Assembly: GCF_000424325.1 (NCBI RefSeq)
Contig: NZ_AUJR01000005.1
Location: 1-64,000 of the forward strand
Direction of reading: 5' to 3'
Source: [Clostridium] clostridioforme AGR2157
Lineage (GTDB): Bacteria; Bacillota; Clostridia; Lachnospirales; Lachnospiraceae
DNA length: 64,000 bases
The translations under genes were made by a program, and so were the position numbers. Positions 4,973-59,804 of this stretch are shown here, piece by piece (positions within the stretch are counted from its first letter, which is position 1; every line of letters starts with the position of its first letter). The notes under the pieces were generated by a model. That model saw only the letters and a program-made list of their open reading frames with translations, was not told the DNA's origin and ran no database searches.

Positions 4973-5042
4973 GCCGTAACAAACTGATTTAGCTGATGTG
5001 AAAGAGTGGGTGTGTATCACTGCTGAAACTATGCTTGATGGG

Positions 5043-5076
5043 GCGCCGGATGCGGTGAAAGTCGCATGTCCGGTGC
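5043..5076 (+). ncRNA. Group II intron domain V
   Basis: A 34-nt hairpin of canonical domain V length: GCGCCGGA pairs with TCCGGTGC, then TGCG pairs with CGCA beyond a 2-nt bulge, capped by a GAAA-type loop. It sits about 70 bases after the reverse transcriptase stop, as expected. Confidence 0.75.
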
Positions 5077-5119
5077 TAACCGGGGGAAAAGCCGGAGATA
5101 ACATCAAAGGCTTACCTAT

Positions 5120-5364
5120 CGGAACCGATGGCCTACATCAAGACAGAGAGCGACGTTCTGAAATTTGTCAACGCCCTGATAATCAACACGAAGGGACAAG
5201 GGAAAGAGGGGACGAGTTTTGGACGAAGGCCGAGACACTTTTGTACTGCGCCCTTGTGGCCTATATCGTCTTTGAAGGGCCGGAGGAAGAACGGAACATG
5301 AACACGTTAGTCGAAATGATTAACAGCATGGAAGTAAGGGAGGATGATGAGAGTTTCAAAAACG
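5120..5364 (+). pseudogene. virD4/TraG-type coupling protein exon, frameshifted
   Basis: The fragment lies between two group II introns. Its first part reads MAYIKTESDVLKFVNALI, and a second frame continues FWTKAETLLYCALVAYIVFEG and NTLVEMINSMEVREDDESFKN. Both match the ATPase region of type IV coupling proteins of Clostridia conjugative elements. The frames are joined by one missing base in the G-run near 5206-5210. The coupling protein links the relaxase-DNA complex to the mating pore. The relaxase remnant downstream shows that an integrative conjugative element once stood here. Confidence 0.75.
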
Positions 5365-55099: not shown

Positions 55100-56503
55100 A
55101 TGTATAGGAAAGAGATTGAAGGTTTTATTGATTCCCACAGGGAAGAAATGATAGAGGATATCTGCACTCTGTGCAGGATTAACAGTGAGAAGATGCCTTA
55201 TGTGGAGGGCAAGCCTTACGGGGAAGGTCCGTTCCAGGCCCTTCAGGCAGCTCTTGGCATTGCAGAGGGATATGGCTTTTCCATCCGCAACTACGACAAC
55301 TATGTGGGGACAGCCGACCTCAATGACAAGGAGAGACAGCTGGACATTCTGGCCCACCTGGACGTGGTTCCTGCTGGCGAGGGATGGACCGAGACAAAGC
55401 CCTTTGAGCCGGTGGTAAAGGACGGAAAGCTCTTTGGCCGCGGTACTGCTGATGACAAGGGCCCGGCCGTGGCTGCGCTCTATGCAATGAGGGCAGTGAA
55501 GGAGCTGGGTATCCCGTTAAATAAGAACGTCAGGCTGATTCTTGGTACGGACGAAGAGTGCGGAAGCTCTGATATCGTAAATTATTACGGCATGGAGGAT
55601 GAGGCGCCCATGACCTTTTCTCCGGATGCGGAATTCCCGGTCATCAACATTGAAAAGGGACGTCTGGAAGGTCATTTCCACGCATCCTTTCAGGCTTCTG
55701 AGGCAATGCCCAGACTGGTGAAGGTGGAAGCCGGAATAAAGGCCAATGTGGTTCCGGGCAAGGCCAGGGCCGTCGTGGAGGGCGTTGACCTTAAGACATT
55801 GGAGGCAGCGGCAGAGGCTGTGGAGAAAGAGACAGGGATCTCCTTTGTACTGGAGGGTGATTTGCCGGTTATAACAGTCACTGCACAGGGAGAAGGCGCC
55901 CATGCATCCACGCCCCAGGAGGGGAAGAATGCCCTTACAGGCCTGCTGGTATACCTGACACGCCTGCCTCTGGCAGAGTGCCCTCAGATGGATATGGTGA
56001 AGAACCTGCTAAAGCTTTTCCCTCACGGCGATACCTGCGGAAAGGCAGCAGGAATCAGCATGGAAGACGAGCTGTCCGGTACTCTGACTCTTGCCTTCAG
56101 TATGCTGACTGTTGGTGCCGATGGCCTGGAAGGCGTATTTGACAGCCGATGCCCAATCTGCGCCACGGAAGAAACTGTGCTGGGAGTGGTAAAGCAGGCC
56201 ATGGCGGACCAGGGGCTTACACTGGAAAATGATTCCATGATACCGCCTCACCATGTGGACGGAAATTCTCATTTTGTAAAGACACTGCTGTCCGTATACA
56301 AGGACTACACAGGCCTTGAGGGCAGCTGCCAGGCTACAGGCGGCGGCACCTATGTCCACACTCTTAAGAACGGCGTTGCTTATGGCGCGGCCCTGCCGGG
56401 AACAGACAACCGCATGCATGGAGCCGATGAGTTCGCGGTGGTGGATGAGCTTGTCTTAAGCGCCAAGATATTTGCACAGGTCATTGTGGAGCTGTGCAGC
56501 TGA
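55100..56503 (+). CDS. pepV: M20 dipeptidase, PepV-like
   Basis: A 467-residue zinc dipeptidase. Metal-site motifs: DILAHLDVVPAGEGW, LFGRGTADDKGPAVA and LGTDEECGSSDIVNYY, with the general-base Glu-Glu pair; the C-terminal His is in GTDNRMHGADEFAVV. A lid/dimer-like insertion sits in the middle (about 190-330). It cleaves dipeptides, often with D- or beta-Ala/His specificity, in the cytoplasm. ATG 55100 follows AAAAGGAGACGG. Confidence 0.92.
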   Translation: MYRKEIEGFIDSHREEMIEDICTLCRINSEKMPYVEGKPYGEGPFQALQAALGIAEGYGFSIRNYDNYVGTADLNDKERQLDILAHLDVVPAGEGWTETKPFEPVVKDGKLFGRGTADDKGPAVAALYAMRAVKELGIPLNKNVRLILGTDEECGSSDIVNYYGMEDEAPMTFSPDAEFPVINIEKGRLEGHFHASFQASEAMPRLVKVEAGIKANVVPGKARAVVEGVDLKTLEAAAEAVEKETGISFVLEGDLPVITVTAQGEGAHASTPQEGKNALTGLLVYLTRLPLAECPQMDMVKNLLKLFPHGDTCGKAAGISMEDELSGTLTLAFSMLTVGADGLEGVFDSRCPICATEETVLGVVKQAMADQGLTLENDSMIPPHHVDGNSHFVKTLLSVYKDYTGLEGSCQATGGGTYVHTLKNGVAYGAALPGTDNRMHGADEFAVVDELVLSAKIFAQVIVELCS

Positions 56504-56624: not shown

Positions 56625-56653
56625 TTGACAAATAGGTTCATGTGATGTATTTT
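56625..56653 (+). promoter_or_regulatory. Promoter of the methionine leader
   Basis: -35 TTGACA (56625-56630), a 17-bp spacer, -10 TATTTT (56648-56653). It drives the Met-rich ORF and, past the terminator, metNIQ. Confidence 0.7.
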
Positions 56654-56706
56654 CTTAACTAAGATAAATCCCAGCGATTTGATAGGAATCAATATAGGAG
56701 GAACTT

Positions 56707-56799
56707 ATGAATCAGTTAAGAGCCATGCAGATGAATATGGATATGATGAACAGCATGTACATGATGATGTGCTGTGTATCCGCATGGGCAAAAAACTGA
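56707..56799 (+). CDS. 30-residue Met-rich peptide, candidate attenuation leader
   Basis: ATG 56707 with AGGAGGAAC just upstream; TGA at 56797-56799. Ten of 30 codons are ATG (residues 1, 7, 9, 11, 13, 14, 17 and 19-21), with Cys-Cys after the last Met run. It is preceded by a promoter and followed, 65 bp later, by a terminator hairpin and then the methionine importer genes. The sequence 56780-56786 (CCGCATG) near its end can pair with CATGCGG (56886-56892) in the terminator. This is the layout of a leader-peptide attenuator sensing Met-tRNA. It could instead be a metal-binding or membrane micropeptide. Confidence 0.6.
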   Translation: MNQLRAMQMNMDMMNSMYMMMCCVSAWAKN

Positions 56800-56863
56800 A
56801 TGTAAGTTTTATCTGTATGGATTGTGATTAATCAGGAGATATCCCGGTAGCAGGGAAAGATTC

Positions 56864-56900
56864 AAGGCCGCAAGTCCGTGCAGGACATGCGGCCTTTTTG
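56864..56900 (+). terminator. Terminator upstream of metN, possible attenuator
   Basis: AAGGCCGCA (56864-56872) and TGCGGCCTT (56888-56896) form a 9-bp stem with a 15-nt loop, followed by TTTTTG. Its 3' arm is complementary to a segment of the leader ORF (CCGCATG, 56780-56786). Confidence 0.85.
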
Positions 56901-57017
56901 CTGTGATTTTGCCATGGACGCTGCGGCCCGGCGTGATGTGGCTGAGTATGGCTGAGGCGTGAGCATGTGCGGGACTGCGGATATGAGCAGCGGGAACAAA
57001 AGAAAGGAATTAAACCT

Positions 57018-58034
57018 ATGGAAGCAAATAATGAAAATCCCATCATCCAGCTGGTGGGGCTGGGGAAACAGTTTCAGACCATGAATGGTCCGGTTACTGC
57101 CCTGGAAGATATCAATTTGGAAATCCGGTATGGAGAGGTGTTCGGTATCATCGGCCTGTCCGGTGCGGGCAAGAGTACCCTGGTGCGGTGTATCAATTAC
57201 CTGGAAGTGCCCACCTCAGGAAAGGTCATATTTGAGGGAAAGAACCTGTCTGTGATGAAGGACAGGGAGAAGCGTCTGTCCAGGCAGTCCATGGGCATGA
57301 TTTTCCAGCAGTTTAACCTGCTGTCCCAGAGAAACGTGCTTCAGAATGTATGCTTCCCGCTGGAGATTGCGGGGGTATCCAAGGCCGAAGCCAAAAAGCG
57401 GGCAGAGGAGCTTTTGACACTGGTGGGTCTGGAGGACCGGATGAAGGCATATCCGGCGCAGCTCTCCGGCGGACAGAAGCAGAGGGTTGCCATTGCCAGG
57501 GCCATGGCAACCAATCCGAAGGTCCTTCTGTGTGACGAGGCCACCAGCGCCCTGGACCCCAATACAACCAAGTCCATTTTGGAACTGCTCAAGAAGATAA
57601 ACCGGGAGATGGGAATTACCGTCATTGTCATTACCCATGAGATGGCGGTCATTGAGGCCATATGCGACAGAGTGGCTATCATAGACCACAGCCACATCGC
57701 GGAGGTGGGGAATGTGTCCGATATCTTCTCCGGTCCCAAATCCGATATCGGCCGCCAGCTGATTCTGGGGGATGTGGCTGAGCAGAACCTGAGTTTTGGC
57801 AATTCCCGCCAGATTCGCATTATCTTTGACGGAAGGGAGTCTTCAGAGCCTGTGATTGCCAATATGGTGCTGGCCTGCAAGGTTCCGGTGAATATCATGC
57901 ATGCGGATACCAGGGATATTGAAGGCAAGGCCATGGGGCAGATGATCATACAGCTTCCGGAGGATGATACGGATGCCGGCAGGATTTGTAACTATCTGAA
58001 GACAGCCAATGTAAAGTTCGAGGAGGTGCGGTAA
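57018..58034 (+). CDS. metN: Methionine importer ATP-binding protein
   Basis: A 338-residue ABC ATPase of the MetNIQ system. GLSGAGKSTLVRCIN (Walker A), LSGGQKQRVAIARAM (signature), LLCDEATSALDP (Walker B) and VITHEMAVIEAICDRV (switch). The C-terminal NIL domain (about 265-338) binds methionine and inhibits transport when it is abundant. ATG 57018 follows AAAGGAATTAAACC; an in-frame ATG at 56967 lies too close to the terminator and lacks a ribosome site. Confidence 0.95.
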   Translation: MEANNENPIIQLVGLGKQFQTMNGPVTALEDINLEIRYGEVFGIIGLSGAGKSTLVRCINYLEVPTSGKVIFEGKNLSVMKDREKRLSRQSMGMIFQQFNLLSQRNVLQNVCFPLEIAGVSKAEAKKRAEELLTLVGLEDRMKAYPAQLSGGQKQRVAIARAMATNPKVLLCDEATSALDPNTTKSILELLKKINREMGITVIVITHEMAVIEAICDRVAIIDHSHIAEVGNVSDIFSGPKSDIGRQLILGDVAEQNLSFGNSRQIRIIFDGRESSEPVIANMVLACKVPVNIMHADTRDIEGKAMGQMIIQLPEDDTDAGRICNYLKTANVKFEEVR

Positions 58035-58035
58035 G

Positions 58036-58701
58036 ATGCAATTTGATTCTACGACCATAAATATGCTTGTAAAAGGAATATGGGAGACCATCTACATGGT
58101 GTTCCTGTCCTCTGCCTTATCCTATGTAATCGGCATTCCTCTGGGAATCGCCCTGGTGGTTACGGACAAGGAGGGCATCAGTCCGGTGCCTCTGTTTAAC
58201 AGGGCCCTGGGGCTCATCATCAATCTGCTGCGTTCCGTGCCGTTTATTATCCTCTTAATCATGGTACTGCCCATTACCAAGTTCATTGTGGGAAAGACCA
58301 TTGGCTCCAATGCCACGGTGGTGCCTCTGATTATTGCCGCGGCCCCCTACATAGGGCGTATGGTGGAGTCTTCCCTGAAGGAAGTGGACGCGGGCGTCAT
58401 CGAAGCAGCCAAGTCCATGGGCGCATCCACCTGGCAGATTATCGTTAAGGTGCTGCTGCCGGAGGCTAAGCCGTCCCTGCTGGTGGGTGCGGCCATATCC
58501 GTGACCACGATTCTCGGATACTCTGCCATGGCAGGATTTACCGGAGGAGGCGGACTGGGCGATATCGCCATCCGTTACGGATACCACCGTTACCAGACCG
58601 ATATGATGATGGTGACCGTAGTGCTTCTGGTCATTATTGTGCAGCTGATCCAGGAGGTCGCCATGCGCATGTCCAGGAAGAGCGATAAGAGAATCAGGTA
58701 G
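58036..58701 (+). CDS. metI: Methionine importer permease
   Basis: 221 residues, five predicted helices, BPD_transp_1 family (signature VDAGVIEAAKSMGASTWQII in the coupling loop). The motif GYSAMAGFTGGGGLGDIAIR near the C-terminal side is typical of MetI. It forms the channel dimer with MetN. It starts two bases after the metN stop. Confidence 0.95.
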   Translation: MQFDSTTINMLVKGIWETIYMVFLSSALSYVIGIPLGIALVVTDKEGISPVPLFNRALGLIINLLRSVPFIILLIMVLPITKFIVGKTIGSNATVVPLIIAAAPYIGRMVESSLKEVDAGVIEAAKSMGASTWQIIVKVLLPEAKPSLLVGAAISVTTILGYSAMAGFTGGGGLGDIAIRYGYHRYQTDMMMVTVVLLVIIVQLIQEVAMRMSRKSDKRIR

Positions 58702-58880
58702 GAAGATCCGGGAATTGAAGCCGGGAAGAGAATCTGCTGAGGCTGTCCGGTTTCCTGACAATGACGGTAAAACGTATATGACCGTCATGTGAGGAAGGAC
58801 GTGCAGCCTGAGCTGATGATAAATGCCTTAATATGGCGAAAATAACAGGGGCAGAGCCCCAAAGCGAGGAGGACACAATT

Positions 58881-59804
58881 ATGAAGAAAAACATCTTAGG
58901 CGCAGCCGTGCTGGCTGCAGTACTGGCATCGGGAGCGCTTAGCGCATGCTCCGCCAGCCCAAAGGAGACCACGGCAGCAGAGACCACGGCAGCAGCTACC
59001 GGGGCGCAGGCTGCTGATTCCAAGGCAGAGGATACCGCAGCGGCAGAGGAGGAGACCACGCAGGCCAGTGCAGAACTGAAGGAAATCGTGGTAGGAGCAA
59101 GCCCTGCGCCACATGCGGAAATCCTCAATGCGGCTAAGGAAGTTCTGGCATCAAAGGGCTACGAGCTGAAGATTGTGGAATATACGGATTACGTGCAGCC
59201 CAACAATGCACTGGATTCCGGCGACCTGGATGCGAACTATTTCCAGCACAAGCCATATCTGGATTCCTTTAATGCGCAGAACGGAACAAAGCTGGTCAGC
59301 GCAGGCGCCATCCACTATGAGCCCTTCGGTATTTATGCAGGCAAGACAGCATCCCTGGAAGAACTTCCGGACAAGGCGACCGTACTGGTGCCAAACGATG
59401 TGAGCAATGAGGCAAGAGCCCTTCTTCTGCTGGAGGCACAGGGTCTGATTAAACTGAAAGACGGTGTTGGCCTGGAGGCTACTAAGAATGACATCGTGGA
59501 GAACACTAAGAACCTGGATATCGTAGAGTTGGAGGCAGCACAGCTTCCACGTTCCATTTCTGACGGCGATATCGCGGTTATCAACGGCAACTATGCAATT
59601 GAAGCAGGTCTTAAAGTCAGCGATGCCCTGGCTACTGAGGATTCCCAGTCCCTGGCAGCTACCACCTACGGCAATGTAGTGGCAGTGAGAGAGGGAGAAG
59701 AATCCAGCGATGCCACCAAGGCCCTGGTGGAAGCATTGACCAGCCCTGAGGTAAAGCAGTTTATGGAAGAGACATATGAAGGCGCTGTAGTGCCGCTGTT
59801 CTAA
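58881..59804 (+). CDS. metQ: Methionine-binding lipoprotein
   Basis: 307 residues. Start ATG 58881 (GAGGAGG upstream). The signal peptide ends in lipobox LSAC (about 22), then a Thr/Ala/Glu-rich linker with tandem ETTAA units. The NlpA/MetQ fold starts LKEIVVGASPAPHAEILNAA and continues VEYTDYVQPNNALDSGDLDA, NYFQHKPYLDSFN and DIAVINGNYAIEAGL. It captures methionine outside the cell for MetNI. Confidence 0.95.
   Translation: MKKNILGAAVLAAVLASGALSACSASPKETTAAETTAAATGAQAADSKAEDTAAAEEETTQASAELKEIVVGASPAPHAEILNAAKEVLASKGYELKIVEYTDYVQPNNALDSGDLDANYFQHKPYLDSFNAQNGTKLVSAGAIHYEPFGIYAGKTASLEELPDKATVLVPNDVSNEARALLLLEAQGLIKLKDGVGLEATKNDIVENTKNLDIVELEAAQLPRSISDGDIAVINGNYAIEAGLKVSDALATEDSQSLAATTYGNVVAVREGEESSDATKALVEALTSPEVKQFMEETYEGAVVPLF

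Follow-up and report, generated by a model that had tools for sequence, protein, structure and literature searches.

Leader-peptide attenuators are known for the trp, his, leu, thr and phe genes of Proteobacteria. In these systems, a leader ORF with regulatory codons is followed by segments pairing as 1:2, 2:3 or 3:4, and by a terminator before the operon. The leader described here, upstream of metNIQ in [Clostridium] clostridioforme AGR2157, appears to be organized alike, but its regulatory codon is that of Met, which is also the start codon, its target is an ABC importer and its host is a clostridium. To our knowledge, methionine genes of Firmicutes have been described as being under S-box, T-box or DNA-binding regulators. 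The S-box (SAM-I) serves methionine-related control and senses SAM. The T-box binds tRNA directly, and a tRNA signal is presumably what it has in common with the metNIQ leader.

Closer relatives of the host also use leader peptides. One study describes a histidine leader peptide for hisS paralogues of bacilli and presents it as the first that its authors knew outside Proteobacteria and Actinobacteria (PMC2965389). In Staphylococcus aureus, the genes for branched-chain amino acids are reported to have an attenuator peptide rich in leucine (PMC5794164), and branched-chain amino acid leaders have been described in Listeria as well. The histidine and leucine peptides are cases of amino-acid leader-peptide attenuation in Firmicutes, yet they concern another amino acid and other genes, and we liken them to the metNIQ leader by description, not by sequence. 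Some methionine transporter genes of Firmicutes have T-box leaders (PMC2965389, PMC7058034), whose target, a methionine importer, is also that of our leader. Another conserved leader ORF with codons for a sulfur amino acid is uORFC-8-2, a Cys-codon leader before cysS of Rhodobacterales for which stalling and readthrough were proposed (PMC8632094); unlike the present case, it involves cysteine, Alphaproteobacteria and an aminoacyl-tRNA synthetase gene. Other leader ORFs have been reported (PMC8632094, PMC6429828), and the words methionine and metN are absent from the main text of these two papers. For Actinobacteria, a further study reports that methionine operons are not preceded by any conserved RNA structure (PMC1262725). 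Among the matches listed in our literature search, which ran mostly outside subscription literature, there was no prior description of Met leader peptides or Met-codon attenuation. Ribosome-mediated attenuation itself is known, and a Met codon serving this role at an importer would be new with respect to those matches. We think that the metNIQ leader is probably a ribosome-mediated transcription attenuator that senses the charging of elongator tRNA-Met and thereby controls metNIQ.

The metNIQ leader and its surroundings

The window is a stretch of 64,000 nucleotides (contig NZ_AUJR01000005.1, positions 1 to 64,000), in which the leader occupies 56625-56899 and metN-metI-metQ 57018-59804 of the + strand. 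The promoter, the AGGAGG, the ORF of 30 codons with ten ATG, the terminator and metN all lie where the initial annotation had placed them (Table 1). Judged from their protein-family matches, the genes downstream look like a methionine-type ABC transporter. Coding ends like that of the dipeptidase-like gene are also present upstream of the leader or of metN in several relatives.

Table 1. Features of the metNIQ leader region in the window, and T-box matches upstream of metN in two other loci (L078 and L088, coordinates of those loci).
Feature	Position	Strand	Remarks
PepV/Sapep-type dipeptidase-like gene	55100-56503	+	directly upstream of the leader
Promoter TTGACA-17-TATTTT	56625..56653	+	TTGACA 56625-56630, 17 bp, TATTTT 56648-56653
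Shine-Dalgarno AGGAGG of the leader ORF	56696..56701	+	
Leader ORF, MNQLRAMQMNMDMMNSMYMMMCCVSAWAKN	56707..56799	+	ATG 56707, TGA 56797-56799, 30 codons, 10 ATG
Segment 1, CCAUGCAGAUGAA	56723..56735	+	within codons 6-10; contains Met7 and Met9; complementary to 56808-56820
Hairpin H, inside the ORF	56750..56775	+	56750-56756 pairs with 56769-56775; codons 15-17 with 21-23; covarying
CCGCATG of the initial annotation	56780..56786	+	partner CATGCGG 56886-56892; pairing without conservation
Segment 2, post-ORF, UUUAUCUGUAUGGAUUGUG	56808..56826	+	56808-56820 to segment 1; 56813-56826 to segment 3
Intrinsic terminator (segments 3:4) and T5 tract	56864..56899	+	hairpin 56864-56896, 9 + 4 pairs; T5 56895-56899
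Segment 3, terminator 5' arm and loop, CGCAAGUCCGUGCAG	56869..56883	+	putative antiterminator partner of segment 2
metN, ATP-binding protein	57018..58034	+	best NCBIfam match TIGR02314, 343.9 bits, below cut-off 499.7
metI, permease	58036..58701	+	NF008049, 216.7 bits, above cut-off 212
metQ, substrate-binding lipoprotein	58833..59804	+	best matches NF008285 and TIGR00363, both below cut-off
T-box match upstream of metN, L078	2731-2997	-	by position; genus other than the window's
T-box match upstream of metN, L088	2559-2817	-	by position; genus other than the window's

The leader has the anatomy by which ribosome-mediated transcription attenuators are structurally defined. Its ORF, predicted to be translated, is short and contains many codons for the amino acid that the operon serves; an intrinsic terminator, predicted to act, stands between the ORF and the operon; and 2:3 and 1:2 pairings exclude each other, with segment 1 placed over the regulatory codons.

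The leader RNA has a folding z-score of -5.98 against 200 dinucleotide shuffles, and in the minimum-energy fold of the window leader letters 56723-56728 of segment 1 pair with the end of the ORF (56782-56787). The same fold contains a long interrupted helix between 56679-56717 and 56794-56831, which joins the Shine-Dalgarno and start region to the ORF end and the post-ORF segment. According to the folding model, this helix would mask the ribosome-binding site in untranslated RNA. We treat it as a lineage extra, because in folding of untranslated leaders the Shine-Dalgarno pairing of segment 2 stays below 0.1 in 16 of the 19 from outside the genus.

Conservation of the leader among Lachnospiraceae

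The ORF, its link to metN and the complementarities are conserved, and both hairpin H and the terminator covary. When 61 genomes were searched at the DNA level, 15 gave a match; all of these belong to the 17 members of the genus in that set, and in every one the main match precedes metN. The promoter stretch TTGACAAA is common to all 15 aligned genus leaders. Their ORFs are 27 to 30 codons long and vary by whole codons; in 14 of the 15, every indel within the ORF has a length divisible by three, the remaining leader (L008) having a one-base shift near the ORF end, with 38 codons read.

Searches beyond the genus point in the same direction. A peptide profile gave 26 matches in 24 of 397 family genomes at E up to 0.1, and the top 14 of these, with E values no higher than 0.00465 and including two from the genus of which one is the window, are all upstream of a metN homologue (71.6-100% identity). 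No properly placed metN was found for seven of the 21 family matches tested; the 15th match (L034, E 0.00489) is without metN, and L035 has merely a weak match to a metN paralogue in the wrong direction. At the level of the order, where the share of other families in the set is only partly known, ten of 392 genomes matched, all listed as the same family; metN is downstream in nine of these and missing in L052. One of the order-level matches, L050, is a clear additional leader with metN downstream, outside the set of 34 used below. An exact DNA pattern run on a genome collection of 84,980 species returned 20 loci. Seventeen of these are Met-rich leaders that precede metN, from records labelled Enterocloster, Hungatella, Lacrimispora, [Clostridium], uncultured Lachnospiraceae and other clostridial names. 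Two pattern matches without metN, in a Treponema MAG (L064) and a Sediminibacterium MAG (L069), look like chance, and L057 is truncated by the end of its contig.

After removal of duplicates, 34 distinct leaders were available, 19 of them from outside the genus, and they were aligned automatically without hand edits; a downstream metN was required for inclusion, so this set is no test of the metN link. Each of the 34 ORFs has 8-13 Met. The idea of a Met-codon leader-peptide attenuator, first put forward from the window alone, is well supported by this alignment of the regions upstream of metN and by the searches: relatives conserve the Met-rich ORF, the terminator and the alternative pairings, and the best search matches stand before metN.

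Methionine richness was also compared with chance. With ten Met codons, the leader ORF has the most among the 1178 short ORFs of the window (12-60 codons, six frames), the runners-up having eight. In 30 family metN loci, at least eight Met were found in 11 of 198 short ORFs (up to 60 codons) within up to 600 nt upstream of metN, compared with 2 of the 1885 in the remainder of these loci (Fisher p 3e-10); the 30 loci are the best-scoring of 57 genomes with a metN match at the set threshold, among 120 family genomes, and are thus biased to near relatives. Such an ORF precedes metN in 11 of the 30 loci, five of them belonging to the motif family and six lacking the motif. The six remote Met-rich leaders (L079, L080, L083, L096, L098 and L099) each have a downstream T-run hairpin. 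Their antiterminator-like pairing stands above most shuffles only in L079 (1/300 as good) and L098 (8/300), and in none of the six is there an equally clear 1:2 pairing (at least 55/300 shuffles as good). Sharing only Met richness, these loci suggest that the sensor either arose more than once or drifts fast. The Met-rich short ORFs upstream of metN in L098 and L099 lack the common motif and are followed by T-run hairpins; the L098 ORF is also rich in Cys.

Alternative pairings and the position of the ribosome

In the first of the two alternative pairings (1:2), CCAUGCAGAUGAA of codons 6-10 is complementary to the post-ORF UUUAUCUGUAUGG over 13 bp, and 89.2% of cells are paired across the 34 leaders vs 31-49% when the segments are slid. 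The second (2:3) joins CUGUAUGGAUUGUG to CGCAAGUCCGUGCAG over 14 bp with one bulge, with 90.4% of cells paired vs 24-51% when slid. Both have CUGUAUGG in common and are mutually exclusive there. The terminator (3:4) is 92.9% paired in the 34 leaders, and eight of its 13 pairs are doubly changed. A script located the T-run hairpin in 31 of the 34; for those it missed (L010, L011 and L051) the hairpin is visible in the alignment or the sequence, and in L059, where the script picked a later hairpin, the expected one is visible in the alignment. Duplex energy beats at least 95 of 100 mononucleotide shuffles, which keep single-base content only, in 30 of 34 leaders for 1:2 and in 25 of 34 for 2:3. 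Against dinucleotide shuffles of a wider region, 5/300 are as good as the window leader for 1:2 and 17/300 for 2:3.

Covariation lends modest support to the 2:3 pairing. Four pairs are changed on both sides, as many as in 5/500 shuffles, and the doubly changed cells are reached by 74/500, counts that are not probabilities because the rows are related. Re-dealing of whole segments, a test in which the registers of L029, L030, L031, L055 and L059 were placed by hand, does as well as the real 2:3 pairing in 800/2000 cases. The clearest rows are L030 and L033, in which both sides are changed and the pairing strength equals that of the window. For 1:2, the alignment offers almost no covariation beyond conservation, since there is little variation in segment 1 or in large parts of segment 2; re-dealing reaches its percent paired in 26/2000 cases and its other measures in about 200/2000. 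The argument for 1:2 is instead built on the conserved complementarity, the fixed wobble bases of Asn10 and Asn15 (given below) and the position over the first internal Met codons. For both pairings, cross-species duplexes are approximately as strong as native ones.

Hairpin H is 97.1% paired over the 34 leaders and has 16 doubly changed cells, a number reached by 0/500 shuffles. When whole arms are re-dealt among 17 distinct rows, 13/5000 reach the observed pairing and 13/5000 the doubly changed cells. Residues 16 and 23 of the peptide change together (AGC with UGCUGU-type, GGC mostly with UGCCGU, GAC with UGUUGU or UGUCGU), a co-change that is therefore explicable by RNA pairing. This matters for an alternative in which the conserved peptide (AMQMNMDMMNGM..MC) would stall the ribosome on methionine or SAM, so that arrest of the nascent chain, and not starvation, would throw the switch. 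Residues other than Met are indeed conserved across genera (C22 is invariant and N10 nearly so), but much of this conservation seems to lie at the level of nucleotides: Asn at residue 10 is AAT in 30/30 rows and Asn at residue 15 is AAC in 27/28, genome codon bias being left out of this comparison. Given also the joint changes with hairpin H and the six remote loci that stay Met-rich without the motif, we regard peptide arrest as unlikely.

How a ribosome might select between the pairings was explored by folding the RNA up to the just-made segment 3, barring roughly 29 nt around the P site from pairing. In the window leader, the probability of 2:3 is 0.98 when the ribosome is stalled on Met7, 0.99 when it is stalled on Met9, about 0.5 for stalls from Met11 to Met21, and 0.22 with the ribosome at the stop codon, when 1:2 reaches 0.71. 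Averaged over the 34 leaders, 2:3 is 0.61 at Met7 vs 0.25 at each leader's own stop. The difference has the expected sense (2:3 higher at Met7) in 26 of the 34, exceeds 0.3 in 16 and is reversed by more than 0.05 in three. In ten of the 34 the stop codon starts inside or beyond segment 2, where a ribosome would therefore block 2:3 directly. The choice of fold is thus predicted to depend on the ribosome, and the model agrees with a rise of readthrough on uncharged tRNA for the window leader and part of its relatives. With the complete terminator present, equilibrium folding favours the terminator in 34, 32 and 34 of the 34 leaders (no ribosome, Met7 and stop, respectively) and fails to separate the states; the mechanism would therefore have to be kinetic, acting co-transcriptionally. 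Other attenuators are likewise held to work kinetically.

We infer the transcription start and actual termination, and Met-tRNA as the signal because of the codon content and the genes served. Transcription would begin just after 56653, and a ribosome would start on the Met-rich ORF. When Met-tRNA is ample, it would reach the stop codon, leaving segment 1 free to pair with segment 2; segment 3 would then be available to form the terminator with segment 4, and transcription would stop near 56899. If Met-tRNA is scarce, the ribosome would halt at Met7 or Met9 and cover segment 1, segment 2 would pair with segment 3, the terminator would come too late and metNIQ would be transcribed. A clear default-off state of the untranslated leader finds no support in the folding, since the leaders disagree (1:2 above 0.5 in 13 of 34, 2:3 above 0.5 in ten) and the window leader is mixed, with 0.50 for 2:3 and 0.50 for Shine-Dalgarno pairing.

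In the window model, any stall at about codons 1-8 would antiterminate, and the specificity for Met therefore rests on codon content. This leaves room for a sensor of cysteine, triggered at Cys codons 22-23 of which Cys22 is invariant, or of translation in general, triggered by any early stall such as that caused by a ribosome inhibitor. However, a stall at Cys22 leaves 2:3 in the window leader at its untranslated level (0.50 and 0.50), and the downstream genes look like methionine transport, which makes such a sensor very unlikely.

The initial annotation had assigned the parts differently: CCGCATG near the ORF end would act as the antiterminator strand by binding CATGCGG in the 3' arm of the terminator, and a ribosome finishing the ORF would shield it. 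The 7-bp complementarity is real and kept in most near relatives, but its role as antiterminator did not hold up. Over the 34 leaders it is 69.3% paired, with 397/500 shuffles as high, and shows no covariation; the duplex of ORF tail and 3' arm is matched by 17/100 mononucleotide shuffles in the window leader and beats 95/100 in only three of the 34. We consider this arrangement most improbable, and in the attenuator proposed here the shielding ribosome at the ORF end gives way to one stalled at the first internal Met codons and covering codons 6-10.

Methionine as the proposed signal, and the control of importers

The S-box (RF00162) has no covariance-model match in the leader at gathering score, and the T-box (RF00230) none in the leader or the window, which confirms the first impression that the leader holds neither. 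Down to E values of 5, Rfam gives seven weak matches in the leader, all far under gathering score and mostly to snoRNA models. An unrecognised RNA binding a metabolite or tRNA, with the ORF incidental, could be imagined from the strong fold and the conserved post-ORF and terminator-loop sequences, but it is scarcely probable given that the leader matches none of the Rfam families at gathering score, that the Met-rich frame is retained with in-frame indels and that 1:2 and 2:3 account for the conserved stretches. Elsewhere in the genome there are 11 T-box matches, five above cut-off, and the single S-box match lies before a gene named metK by NCBIfam (608 bits, cut-off 309.4). An Rfam scan of 20 of the 30 family metN loci found two with a T-box that, judged by position, immediately precedes metN (Table 1) and none with an S-box; in many of the 30, neither a T-box (within the 20 scanned) nor a Met-codon ORF was found. 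Genera of Lachnospiraceae thus seem to differ in how they control the importer, some using a T-box and others a Met-codon ORF.

Food for speculation is the use of a signal amino acid that also starts the sensor ORF. A shortage of Met should slow initiation at AUG too, which poses the question of how a starvation sensor functions when initiation requires the same amino acid. The design may respond when elongator tRNA-Met is moderately short but initiation still proceeds. By a narrow balance, we favour the wider reading that, in spite of this difficulty, the leader represents an undescribed class of Met-codon attenuators across Lachnospiraceae, replacing T-box or S-box at the methionine importer. 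If so, Met-codon attenuation would be an additional RNA route to methionine genes in gut clostridia, and SAM sensing, by the S-box before metK, would be kept apart from Met-tRNA sensing within the same genome.

Two minor observations concern the surroundings. The window contains a group II catalytic intron RNA (RF00029) at 5041-5125 on the + strand, with 57.1 bits, above gathering score. Between terminator and metN, L007 and L059, which belong to different genera, carry a repeat-like insert of similar letters (GACCCGCCGCAGGCGGAGAATCCCGC and its flanks).
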